64,000 nucleotides of DNA, taken from positions 1 through 64,000 of the forward strand of contig CANFST010000010.1 of assembly GCA_947449695.1 (NCBI GenBank), in the 5' to 3' direction. Positions within the stretch are counted from its first letter, which is position 1. Each line of letters begins with the position of its first letter. Below, in pieces: positions 3,528 through 63,996 of this stretch. Made by a program: the position numbers and the translations under genes. The notes below the pieces were generated by a model. The model was not told where the DNA came from and did not search any database. It saw nothing but the letters and a program-made list of their open reading frames with translations. Origin of the DNA: Chitinophagales bacterium. GTDB taxonomy: Bacteria > Bacteroidota > Bacteroidia > Chitinophagales > CAIODY01.

Positions 3528-3692
3528 TCGGTTAGTGTCCTCACTAACCGAAACAGTTGATGTTCGTGGGGACACGAACCTCGGCAGAGCAGAGCCTTTT
3601 GTGTTCCAACGAGTTTGCAACTCGTTGTTGTTGTCTGACGATTTAAAATCGTCTATTACCTATGCCGAGTTACAAACTCGGCTGAACATCAA
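3528..3692. repeat. REP-like cluster of five hairpins inside an outer inverted repeat
   Basis: tcggttagtg/cactaaccga (3528-3551), gttcgtg/cacgaac (3562-3579), caacgagtt/aactcgttg (3607-3627), gacgattt/aaatcgtc (3637-3653), gccgagtt/aactcggc (3664-3682); outer ttgatgttc (3557-3565)/gaacatcaa (3684-3692). Confidence 0.85.
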
Positions 3693-3814
3693 GTGCGACT
3701 GGAACTACTTGGTTCAAAAAAAATGAACAAAAACAGATTGAATCAGGCAGTCACCAAGCCCCAACGCTCAAATGCTATACGGCAGCTTGGCGACAACGAA
3801 CAACAGCTTAGTGC

Positions 3815-4156
3815 TTACGGGGTCCCAATATTGTCAAGCCACTTTTTAAATGCGAATGAATGATACTTTAATTCTTTGCCAAGAACAATTCTTTTGATTG
3901 TCAACAAAACGAGTGCAAGAATGAAAACGAATGTTGTCATGATTAAGTCCAAGTAAAATTTGAATCCTTTAATCAGTAAAGAATAAGTGTCTGTCCCATT
4001 GTATGTTAAGTGAGAAGCACTGTATTTTTCTATGTCTTTCGCTCTGTTATTTTCATAATCGTCAAAAGTTGGATTGTATTTGTGCATCATTTCATGCCAT
4101 CCAAATTGCCATAAAATTTTAAAATCGCTATTTTCATTTGAGGTATCTAACCCCAA
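3815..4156 (-). CDS. Hypothetical membrane protein
   Basis: ORF track, TTG start; one predicted hydrophobic helix (FYLDLIMTTFVFILALVLLTI). Confidence 0.45.
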   Translation of the reverse strand: MGLDTSNENSDFKILWQFGWHEMMHKYNPTFDDYENNRAKDIEKYSASHLTYNGTDTYSLLIKGFKFYLDLIMTTFVFILALVLLTIKRIVLGKELKYHSFAFKKWLDNIGTP

Positions 4157-4171
4157 ACTTAAAAAATAGGA

Positions 4172-4723
4172 TTATAAAGTCTGCTTTGGTTTTGTTAGTT
4201 CGCTTATTGGCATATCAACCTTTCTTTCAGTAACATCAGATACTCGAACTTCTTTTGTGTTTGTTGTTTCATGCTGCTGTTCATCAGAGTTATGAATAAT
4301 TTTTTCTTCGCCAGTTCTTGGATATTGATTATACCTTAAATCTTTTGTCCCATTCCTTAAATTTTCGTTGATATTGTAGATGTCCCAAAGTGAGACCACA
4401 CTAACATTTTTATTTAAGTTAGATGAAAACAAAAAACTTACAAGAGTTAAAAGCCCTATCAATGTTAATGTTTTGATGTCTGCAACTTGGTTAACTTGAA
4501 TTTGTCGCCAAATAAAAAATAAAAGAAAAAGGGACAGCAATAGAATGATAAATTTATACTGAAGATAAAAAGTAAAGTAGTAAAATTCTTCTGTTATTGC
4601 ATTGCCTATCATCCCCGTTCCACTACGACTAAACTTATGGTCAATAGGGTTACTGCCAGGTAAGATTCCAATAAATTCAATAGCTAAAATGATGATGGTA
4701 AAAGCAATGATTATTTTTTTCAT
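4172..4723 (-). CDS. Hypothetical membrane protein
   Basis: 183-aa ORF with N-terminal and internal hydrophobic segments. Confidence 0.55.
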   Translation of the reverse strand: MKKIIIAFTIIILAIEFIGILPGSNPIDHKFSRSGTGMIGNAITEEFYYFTFYLQYKFIILLLSLFLLFFIWRQIQVNQVADIKTLTLIGLLTLVSFLFSSNLNKNVSVVSLWDIYNINENLRNGTKDLRYNQYPRTGEEKIIHNSDEQQHETTNTKEVRVSDVTERKVDMPISELTKPKQTL

Positions 4724-4917
4724 TTCGTCATTTTATTGTCGAGGTTGATAGTTGTCCGTCTGGTAGTTTTGCATCGCCGCTAACTTGTATATAGGTTGTC
4801 ACCTTATGTCACAAAGCCGTCCATTTTTTGTTGGCTTGTGGCAACTGTCTGTGTTTTCTTATTTCTATCACAAATATTGTGGTTATTATTTTATTTTACG
4901 AATTATTTTGCAATATC

Positions 4918-5232
4918 ATTAGCTCAATATCATCGGGGGTTCATTTTGTAACAGCCGTAATCCCTTCCACCGCAAACCTAATTCAGCTTGTCGTTTCCGC
5001 ATTTCTTTTTATCATGAAGGTAATTGCGTTTATTGTTAAAGGAATCACGGTTATAATAAAAGCAATTCTTTGTGTTATCAACCTAATTACGGCAACCATA
5101 AAAGGTGTTCGGTTTGTTACAAACGGAATTCCTTTTGTCGCATCCTGCATTCCGGTTGTAATAAACGGAGTTCAGTTTATCACATCCTGAATTACTTTTT
5201 TTATACACTGAATTGCTTTAAGGGCAGCCACC
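4918..5232. repeat. Degenerate tandem array of fifteen 21-bp units (approximate consensus RTTCnnTTTRTnAnAnnCngA)
   Basis: Units start at 4918, 4939, 4960, 4981, 5002, 5023, 5044, 5065, 5086, 5107, 5128, 5149, 5170, 5191, 5212. T at position 2 in all 15; T at position 3 in 13 of 15; TTRT-like core at positions 8-11 in most. Confidence 0.8.
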
Positions 5233-5400
5233 ATAGCCTGTTTTACGACTATTTAACATTTGTTTGCATCACCACGTGAAACATTTTTAAAATCGCTCCG
5301 TATTACAATATATAAAATTGAGTATTTCATTTTTAACTTCAAAAAATTAATAGCTGCATGATGTAACATTTACACTCCAAATACAAATACGGAGATTAAA

Positions 5401-6018
5401 ATGAATAAAGTTAAGATTAGTGTTGGCTTCGGCGAATACCCCGATGCCAGACTGCTTGTGAAATCCAAGCACATTAGCCAGTCGATGACTGGTAACAGCA
5501 ATTTCCCCACCCCTTCACCCACTTTAGCTGTGTACAACGCAGCTGTGTTAGCTTACGAAACAGCCCTGGGCAATGCAGAAAACGGTAGTGTTAACGACAC
5601 CGCCATTAAAAACGATGCCCGTGCTACTTTAGAAAATTTAATGCAGTCATTGGGTTTGTATGTGCAATTAAATTGTGCTAACAACCTCAACAAAGCCACC
5701 AGCAGTGGTTTCGACGTGCATGCAGCACCTACATCGGCTGTGGTGCCTGCTATCCCTTCTAATGTAAAAGGTGATGCAGGTACGCATACAGGCGAAGTGG
5801 ATGCCTCTTGCGATTCGGAACCTGAAGCTGATTTTTTCATCTTGCGCTATTCGTTAAACATCACCGCTCCGGTATGGGTGGTTATGTTGGCGCAAAAAAG
5901 CAGAAAGTATACCATCACGGATTTAACTCATGGTAAGGATATTTTAATCAGCATGTGTGCCGGAAACACAGCAGGGGTAAGCGATTGGAGCGATTCAACC
6001 ACCGTGTTGGTGTATTGA
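5401..6018 (+). CDS. Fibronectin type III-like small protein, conserved Bacteroidota family
   Basis: 205 aa; N-terminus VSVGFGEYPDARLLVKSKHISQSMTGNSNFPTPSPTLA..., 'LGLYVQLNCANNLN...SSGFDV', FN3-like C-terminus (YTITDLTHGKDILISMCAGNTAGVSDWSD). Confidence 0.8.
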   Translation: MNKVKISVGFGEYPDARLLVKSKHISQSMTGNSNFPTPSPTLAVYNAAVLAYETALGNAENGSVNDTAIKNDARATLENLMQSLGLYVQLNCANNLNKATSSGFDVHAAPTSAVVPAIPSNVKGDAGTHTGEVDASCDSEPEADFFILRYSLNITAPVWVVMLAQKSRKYTITDLTHGKDILISMCAGNTAGVSDWSDSTTVLVY

Positions 6019-6115
6019 ACACTTGGATAGGTGGTTTTTAAAAAGCGATTTGCATGGGGTGGTGCAGGTCGCTTTTTTGTTTTTGGAAACCTTGCTTAAA
6101 ATAATAAAATCTGAT

Positions 6116-63400: not shown

Positions 63401-63440
63401 GGCTATGCTTAATTCAACGCATTTGAAGCAACACCAACAA

Positions 63441-63692
63441 TGGCTGAAAAGGGTTTTGCATTAACCAGTGTCCATGAGCTCGAAACACGAAAGTGTTTTG
63501 CATTCAGTTACGTTTAGGAGCTCGAAACACAAAAGTGTTTTGCATCCAACGATGTCCATGAGTCCAAAACACAAAAGTGTTTTGCGTTCAGTGATGTCCA
63601 TGAACTCGAAACACAAAAAGGAATTGCATTAACCAATGCTTGGGAACAAGAAACACAAGTAACAAATGTATTCATAGGTTTTTGGGAGCAGC
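63441..63692. repeat. 42-bp tandem repeat, about six degenerate copies
   Basis: 'aaacac' recurs at 63483, 63525, 63567, 63609, 63651 (exact 42-bp spacing); 63441-63482 aligns as an additional leading copy. Confidence 0.85.
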
Positions 63693-63825
63693 AATGTTAT
63701 TTGATTATAAAATGTGCGTAACCAATTAAATACTGTTAATAAATATTTTACTGGCTGGTGGGTGCAAATACACTTTTAGGGCGTAGGTTTGGTTAATGAA
63801 TCTACTTAAAATTAGTGGGGTTGTC

Positions 63826-63996
63826 GGAGGACAAACTCCGACAACGGCTCTGCACAATTCAACGCTTTCAAAACAACACCAACAATGGCTGAGAATTTCT
63901 TCTGATTTTGAAAATGGCATATACATTTGCATTATCACTAATCAAATTACCAATCAACAGCAAATCAGAAAATTAATCATTCAAAAAGATGAATAA
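63826..63996 (+). pseudogene. Putative C-terminal T9SS sorting-domain fragment fused to a repeat-derived N-terminus
   Basis: ORF ends ...ISSDFENGIYICIITNQITNQQQIRKLIIQKDE, resembling T9SS CTD tails. It is preceded by gttgtcggaggacaaactccgacaac, a near copy of the hairpin at 63375-63400. Confidence 0.45.

Follow-up and report, generated by a model that had tools for sequence, protein, structure and literature searches.

Arrays of phased 21-bp palindromic units upstream of an uncharacterized FN3-like gene family in Chitinophagales and other bacteria

Introduction

ParR-parC centromeres consist of tandem repeats of about 20 bp that lie upstream of the par operon, have a locus-specific sequence and are bound by ribbon-helix-helix dimers. 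Plasmid iterons are direct repeats placed about two helical turns apart and bound by one protein, and the multi-site operators of dimeric repressors present dyad-symmetric sites on one face of the helix upstream of a gene. The specificity of the ParR-parC interaction is the subject of PMC9426499. REP/BIME elements are intergenic palindromes of 20 to 40 bp (PMC3733652), and intergenic tandem heptamer repeats are noncoding sequences that are abundant in prokaryotes and whose function has not been established (PMC6344855).

The array analyzed here lies in a stretch of 64,000 nt (the window), which is part of the 81.8-kb contig C10 in the 3.14-Mb genome of a Chitinophagales bacterium, and it precedes the gene of a small FN3-like protein. 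With ParR-parC it shares tandem sites of about 20 bp, corresponding to two helical turns, a gene downstream and a locus-specific repeat sequence. However, neither a ParM/ParA-type motor nor ParR was a recurrent neighbor (108 loci, within 2.5 kb), and the present arrays are chromosomal, occur many times per genome and adjoin a protein with a predicted FN3 fold. Direct repeats at about two helical turns are also a feature of plasmid iterons, but no replication initiator was found among the recurrent neighbors, and many unrelated arrays occur in one genome. As in the operators of dimeric repressors, the units are dyad symmetric and their spacing ahead of a gene is helically phased, although the number of sites is about 16, their sequence is private to the locus and no known regulator fold is adjacent as a rule. 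Like REP/BIME elements, the arrays are built of intergenic palindromes of the 20- to 40-bp class, but they are tandem, keep a fixed 21-bp period and are locus private, the window motif being found only at C10, C39 and C27. Heptamer repeats are likewise noncoding tandem DNA; three heptamers make up 21 bp, and 7-bp arrays occur at some loci of the family, yet the array in the window lacks a 7-bp sub-period. CRISPR and guide arrays, too, are tandem repeats adjoining a gene; in the window array, however, the units are contiguous, degenerate and 21 bp long with no division into constant repeats and variable spacers, as a preliminary description of this DNA had noted, and no cas gene was among the recurrent neighbors at related loci. 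By analogy, the array may work like multi-site operators and partition centromeres, yet it lacks the partition and iteron features that we tested.

Results

The 21-bp periodicity at positions 4918 to 5232 was confirmed. Autocorrelation over this region gave matches of 0.49, 0.55, 0.53, 0.48 and 0.47 at lags of 21, 42, 63, 84 and 105, respectively, whereas 1,000 dinucleotide shuffles, a control that the preliminary description had proposed, gave at lag 21 an average of 0.27 and never more than 0.35, and no match above 0.40 anywhere between lags 10 and 59. The region also represents the maximum of the lag-21 signal in the whole window, and the signal at lag 42 exceeds that at lag 21, which indicates that the units alternate. 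Fifteen units without indels had been proposed; fourteen of them (Table 1) scored 2.8 to 5.8 s.d. over background and showed no indel across 294 bp, while the first proved marginal, and the units adjoining the array fade in score. TRF picked up the best-preserved part alone, positions 5114 to 5193, as a 42-bp period, and autocorrelation revealed no 7-bp sub-period within the fourteen units. Their consensus, TTCCGTTTAT.ATAAACGGAA, is a complete 21-bp palindrome with 10 of 10 pairs matched about the center, a property that had been missed in the preliminary description. The palindrome score of 0.51 (null, 0.37; z, 5.4) was not reached in any of 1,500 column permutations, and the mirror symmetry of the column profile, used as a control, was at chance level.

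Table 1. Positions of the array and associated features in the window
Feature	Positions	Strand	Basis or remark
21-bp array, 14 degenerate units	4939-5232	.	Autocorrelation, unit scores, palindrome score and consensus
Marginal first unit	4918-4938	.	2.0 s.d. above background
Best-preserved single palindromic unit, TTCGGTTTGTTACAAACGGAA	5108-5128	.	3 mismatches to the consensus
Second well-preserved unit, TTCCGGTTGTAATAAACGGAG	5150-5170	.	3 mismatches to the consensus
Array-to-start-codon spacer, 168 bp	5233-5400	+	Coordinates; no promoter motif found
FN3-like gene, 205 aa; predicted N-terminal helical domain and C-terminal FN3 fold	5401-6018	+	AlphaFold; sequence and fold matches
Heptapeptide-repeat ORF	4828-5190	+	Judged a by-product of the 21-bp period, not a gene; arrays as a class without coding bias
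Second window array of 42-bp period, with palindromy at 42 bp (p 0.009)	63418-63698	.	291 bp before the gene with a type IX sorting domain

For the protein encoded downstream of the array, AlphaFold predicted with a mean pLDDT of 96 three main N-terminal helices (residues 15-29, 42-59 and 64-91) and a C-terminal beta domain. Sequence profile and fold both identify the C-terminal part as a predicted FN3 domain: PF00041 matched 43 of 60 family members, the protein itself staying below the Pfam pass level, and the best fold match had an E value of 1.3e-6. The N-terminal domain matched no PDB fold below an E value of 1.2, which ruled it out as a known DNA-binding fold, and a search of Pfam found no family recurring among the members for this domain. 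The weak matches to Pfam, PHROGs and PADLOC, each obtained by only one to three family members, were put down to chance. The family is unannotated and joins a new N-terminal helical domain to an FN3 domain.

The gene has relatives in Bacteroidota, Verrucomicrobiota and Acidobacteriota. About ten or more (a dozen or so loci) occur in the same genome, and of the 296 genomes sampled from the same class, about 40 contain strong relatives (E < 1e-20). A phage or mobile-element origin was ruled out, as no relative was found in phage records or viral contigs. A conserved partner gene was also ruled out; the largest recurrent neighbor family, a collagen-like protein encoded downstream, was present at 7 of the 108 loci within 2.5 kb. 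Collagen-like or tail-fiber-like proteins are encoded 3′ of the family gene at loci of Verrucomicrobiota, L128 among them. The closest paralog in the same genome (L002/L015; 65% identity) carries a frameshift near the gene start and may therefore be a pseudogene with an intact array.

The periodicity recurs upstream of homologs, where the preliminary description had suggested that it be sought. Once duplicates were removed, 93 distinct relatives had 800 bp of sequence ahead of the gene; 70 of them carried an array at −800 to 0 (threshold 0.55, all lags from 15 to 69 allowed), and its period was always 20 to 22 bp or a multiple thereof, whereas the other bins near family genes gave 0/22, 7/64, 8/103, 2/72 and 1/50 (0 to 11%). 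In a looser set of 103 upstream regions, which includes a few duplicate loci, 78 scored above 0.52 with all lags from 15 to 69 allowed; their best lags were 21, 42 or 63 (70 regions), 44 (4), 62 (3) and 60 (1). The downstream control gave 9 of 109 above 0.52, with mixed lags. About a quarter of the family genes have no detectable array. Arrays were seen at about 20 of 24 loci in Verrucomicrobiota and at one of two in Acidobacteriota. The gene 5′ of the array has no preferred orientation (35 co-directional and 31 opposed), so that the array belongs with its downstream gene. The 107 arrays that we delimited, using only lags near multiples of 20 to 22 bp, had a median length of 338 bp, about 16 sites and a median distance to the start codon of 176 bp; period variants of 20, 22 and 41 bp exist. 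The Bacteroidota promoter motif TAnnTTTG was not enriched between array and start codon. Two further observations concern these loci: contigs in some cases end near family genes, and assemblies may break inside the arrays; and tandem arrays of 7 bp, of which 21 is a multiple, occur by family genes with the units AGCGAAT, ATTAACA and ACAATTA (L050:1475-1621, L068:1640-1735 and upstream in L063).

Palindromy is general among the arrays, while the unit sequence differs from locus to locus, as exemplified by TTTGTACAAGA (L090), TACTGnnnnCAGTA (L099 and L101), TTTCCCAGTCTTGGGAAGTC (L123) and GGGCACTGTGCCC (L187). By column permutation, 80 of 102 arrays were palindromic at p < 0.05, compared with 5 of 102 in the mirror-symmetry control, and column conservation was symmetric about the dyad (r 0.32 versus −0.06). 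If transcribed, such an array could form a row of RNA hairpins serving as a leader, a decoy or a small-RNA precursor, since palindromic units would fold as hairpins and a 5′ leader could occupy the position of the array. The stem mismatches, however, are about equally GT and AC (55 versus 64), the gene strand is skewed in neither GC nor AT, and the complement match within a unit (0.455) is not above that with the next unit (0.459), after which it declines slowly as in direct matching. Selected hairpins should show compensated changes, and as the within-unit complement match is no higher, a consensus read in double-stranded DNA is favored; Rfam likewise gave no credible match at positions 3600 to 6100. 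We consider the hairpin explanation improbable, and of the roles raised in the preliminary description, structured RNA yields to protein-bound double-stranded DNA, given no strand asymmetry and no pairing covariation. Membership of a structured RNA family found no support, the covariation being flat and a credible Rfam match lacking.

Similar arrays also occur away from the family. In our survey of the same genome, which sampled 1.12 Mb in stretches, 18 of 21 or 22 noncoding arrays had periods of 20 to 21 bp or multiples thereof, a tally that includes a few short coding repeats, and several of the arrays unlinked to the family, among them the second one in the window, stand before genes that carry a type IX sorting domain. 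The association between array and gene is consequently strong but not exclusive. In three other family-bearing genomes, 357 kb of sequence distant from family genes contained no array with a period of 20 to 22 bp or a multiple; G013 had no such array in 240 kb, and 400 kb of G003 contained three, each close to the start of a contig. The second array of the window is noncoding and contains AAACAC-GTGTTT palindromes, and the next gene, which carries a type IX secretion sorting domain, starts at 63989. Elsewhere in the genome, the motif of the first array was found only in unlinked arrays on C39 and C27, and no dispersed single sites were found outside the array at 3 mismatches. The arrays at L199:1958-2324 and upstream in L018 have a 41-bp period and share the motif GAACAAAGTTC plus CATGA; unlike the L018 array, that of L199 has no linked FN3-like gene. 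Two other repeats were noted, a REP-like dispersed palindrome, GTTGTCGGAG...CTCCGACAAC, which is repeated in the genome (63376-63402 of the window and intergenic regions such as L004), and a 147-bp tandem repeat at 1914-2918 of the window with 6.8 copies and an 84% match.

In Sphingobacterium (L090 and L099), the array and the FN3-like gene are preceded by what we take to be a small HTH-like gene and followed by one that we take to be DUF5675-like. The exact motif sites of Sphingobacterium faecale are confined to two arrays, one of them apparently without an FN3-like gene, which suggests that some solo arrays may be remnants. In this second cassette copy, L292 (G349:C13:431180-434195), the downstream gene comes immediately after the array and the FN3-like gene is apparently missing; it is perhaps a solo array left after gene loss.

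In several species pairs, both the spacing and the consensus columns proved to be constrained. In the Sphingobacterium pair L094/L099, the most conserved third of the columns differed at 14% and the least conserved at 59%, with 28% in the 3′ flank, and the ordering was the same in most other species pairs; in the ortholog pairs L013/L049 and L148/L162, the most conserved columns were not less diverged than middling ones, the column classes being derived in every comparison from one of the two arrays. The array held no gap columns in L052/L074 and L099/L101, compared with 266 and 112, respectively, outside it. Related species can thus retain the unit spacing with few or no indels, which bears out the earlier impression that spacing is more constrained than sequence. 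Array similarity fell with protein identity, from 0.90 (above 85%) and 0.77 (70 to 85%) to 0.67 (45 to 55%), against a background of about 0.62. Some closely similar proteins nevertheless have unrelated arrays. The paralogs L110 and L119 have proteins that are 85% identical and an array similarity of 0.64 (background, 0.62), and these unrelated arrays imply that the protein need not set site specificity. The L110 array is a hybrid in which 14 units of one motif are followed at the 3′ edge by a remnant of the L119 motif; it resembles a replacement caught midway and suggests that arrays are replaced via amplification of a drifted unit. Among close pairs, no clear pattern of protein residues tracking array change was found.

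These data bear on two further explanations. A functionless minisatellite, arising neutrally from slippage or palindrome-templated mutation, would accord with the turnover of unit sequence between paralogs and with the other noncoding arrays of the genome, most of which have periods in 20- to 21-bp multiples. Against it stand the concentration of arrays before one family in several phyla and their rarity elsewhere nearby, the lack of such arrays in the 357 kb mentioned above, and the column-specific conservation with few indels in several species pairs, so that neutral origin, too, carries little probability. A DNA structural element (a cruciform, curvature or a nucleoid anchor), in which phasing matters and sequence does not, could explain why all arrays stay near a two-turn period whatever their sequence; palindromes can extrude, and the period variants of 20, 22 and 41 bp are also compatible with it. 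Pure structure, however, does not need the locus-specific consensus columns that are kept between species, compensatory changes are absent, and some arrays, such as L187, are GC rich, unlike A-tract curvature. We regard this explanation as very improbable. That the array encodes a heptapeptide-repeat protein is scarcely credible: an open frame with a VRFVTNG-type repeat is present, as the preliminary description had reported, and begins with TTG, but stop codons interrupt the window array at the unit ends it had named, no more than 48 of 107 arrays are open in any of the six frames, with neither strand preferred (gene strand, 32; antisense, 35), and 41-bp arrays shift frame with every unit, all in line with its view that the array is not selected as protein.

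Discussion

We favor, with moderate confidence, the view that the array is an operator-like row of phased, dyad-symmetric sites in double-stranded DNA, bound by a putative dimeric protein that controls the adjacent gene. The tandem sites would follow each other at about 21 bp, or two helical turns, a spacing that would place all of them on one face of the helix. Along about 300 bp, they would be occupied cooperatively by a homodimeric or oligomerizing DNA-binding protein, which would control the gene downstream of the array. Phased protein binding, which the preliminary description had raised as a possibility, appears to be the likeliest function, and we infer it from dyad symmetry that comes without strand asymmetry or pairing covariation. 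A site sequence private to each locus would be expected if related copies must not cross-talk.

The adjacent FN3-like protein is a candidate binder, which would amount to autoregulation; we regard this as doubtful, the protein being only mildly basic and without a recognizable DNA-binding fold. It is similarly unlikely, in our estimation, that each member of the family binds its own private palindrome array and that the arrays form a pan-phylum chromosomal system with many orthogonal addresses per genome. If true, private-array binding by FN3-like proteins would constitute a new class of DNA-binding protein, acting in gene control or chromosome organization.

Phased arrays of dyad sites are already known; for the present set and its association with this gene family, we found no earlier account in the open-access literature, subscription journals and preprints lying outside the scope of the search. 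The association suggests that these are DNA docking arrays of a kind not yet described. Its combination of fixed architecture and free sequence is unusual, in that a two-turn period and dyad symmetry are accompanied by a different sequence at almost every locus. In Bacteroidota, in Verrucomicrobiota and in at least one genome of Acidobacteriota, the arrays precede one uncharacterized family, and if each array is read by a protein, they would provide natural orthogonal pairs of array and reader as well as a route to the function of the FN3-like family.
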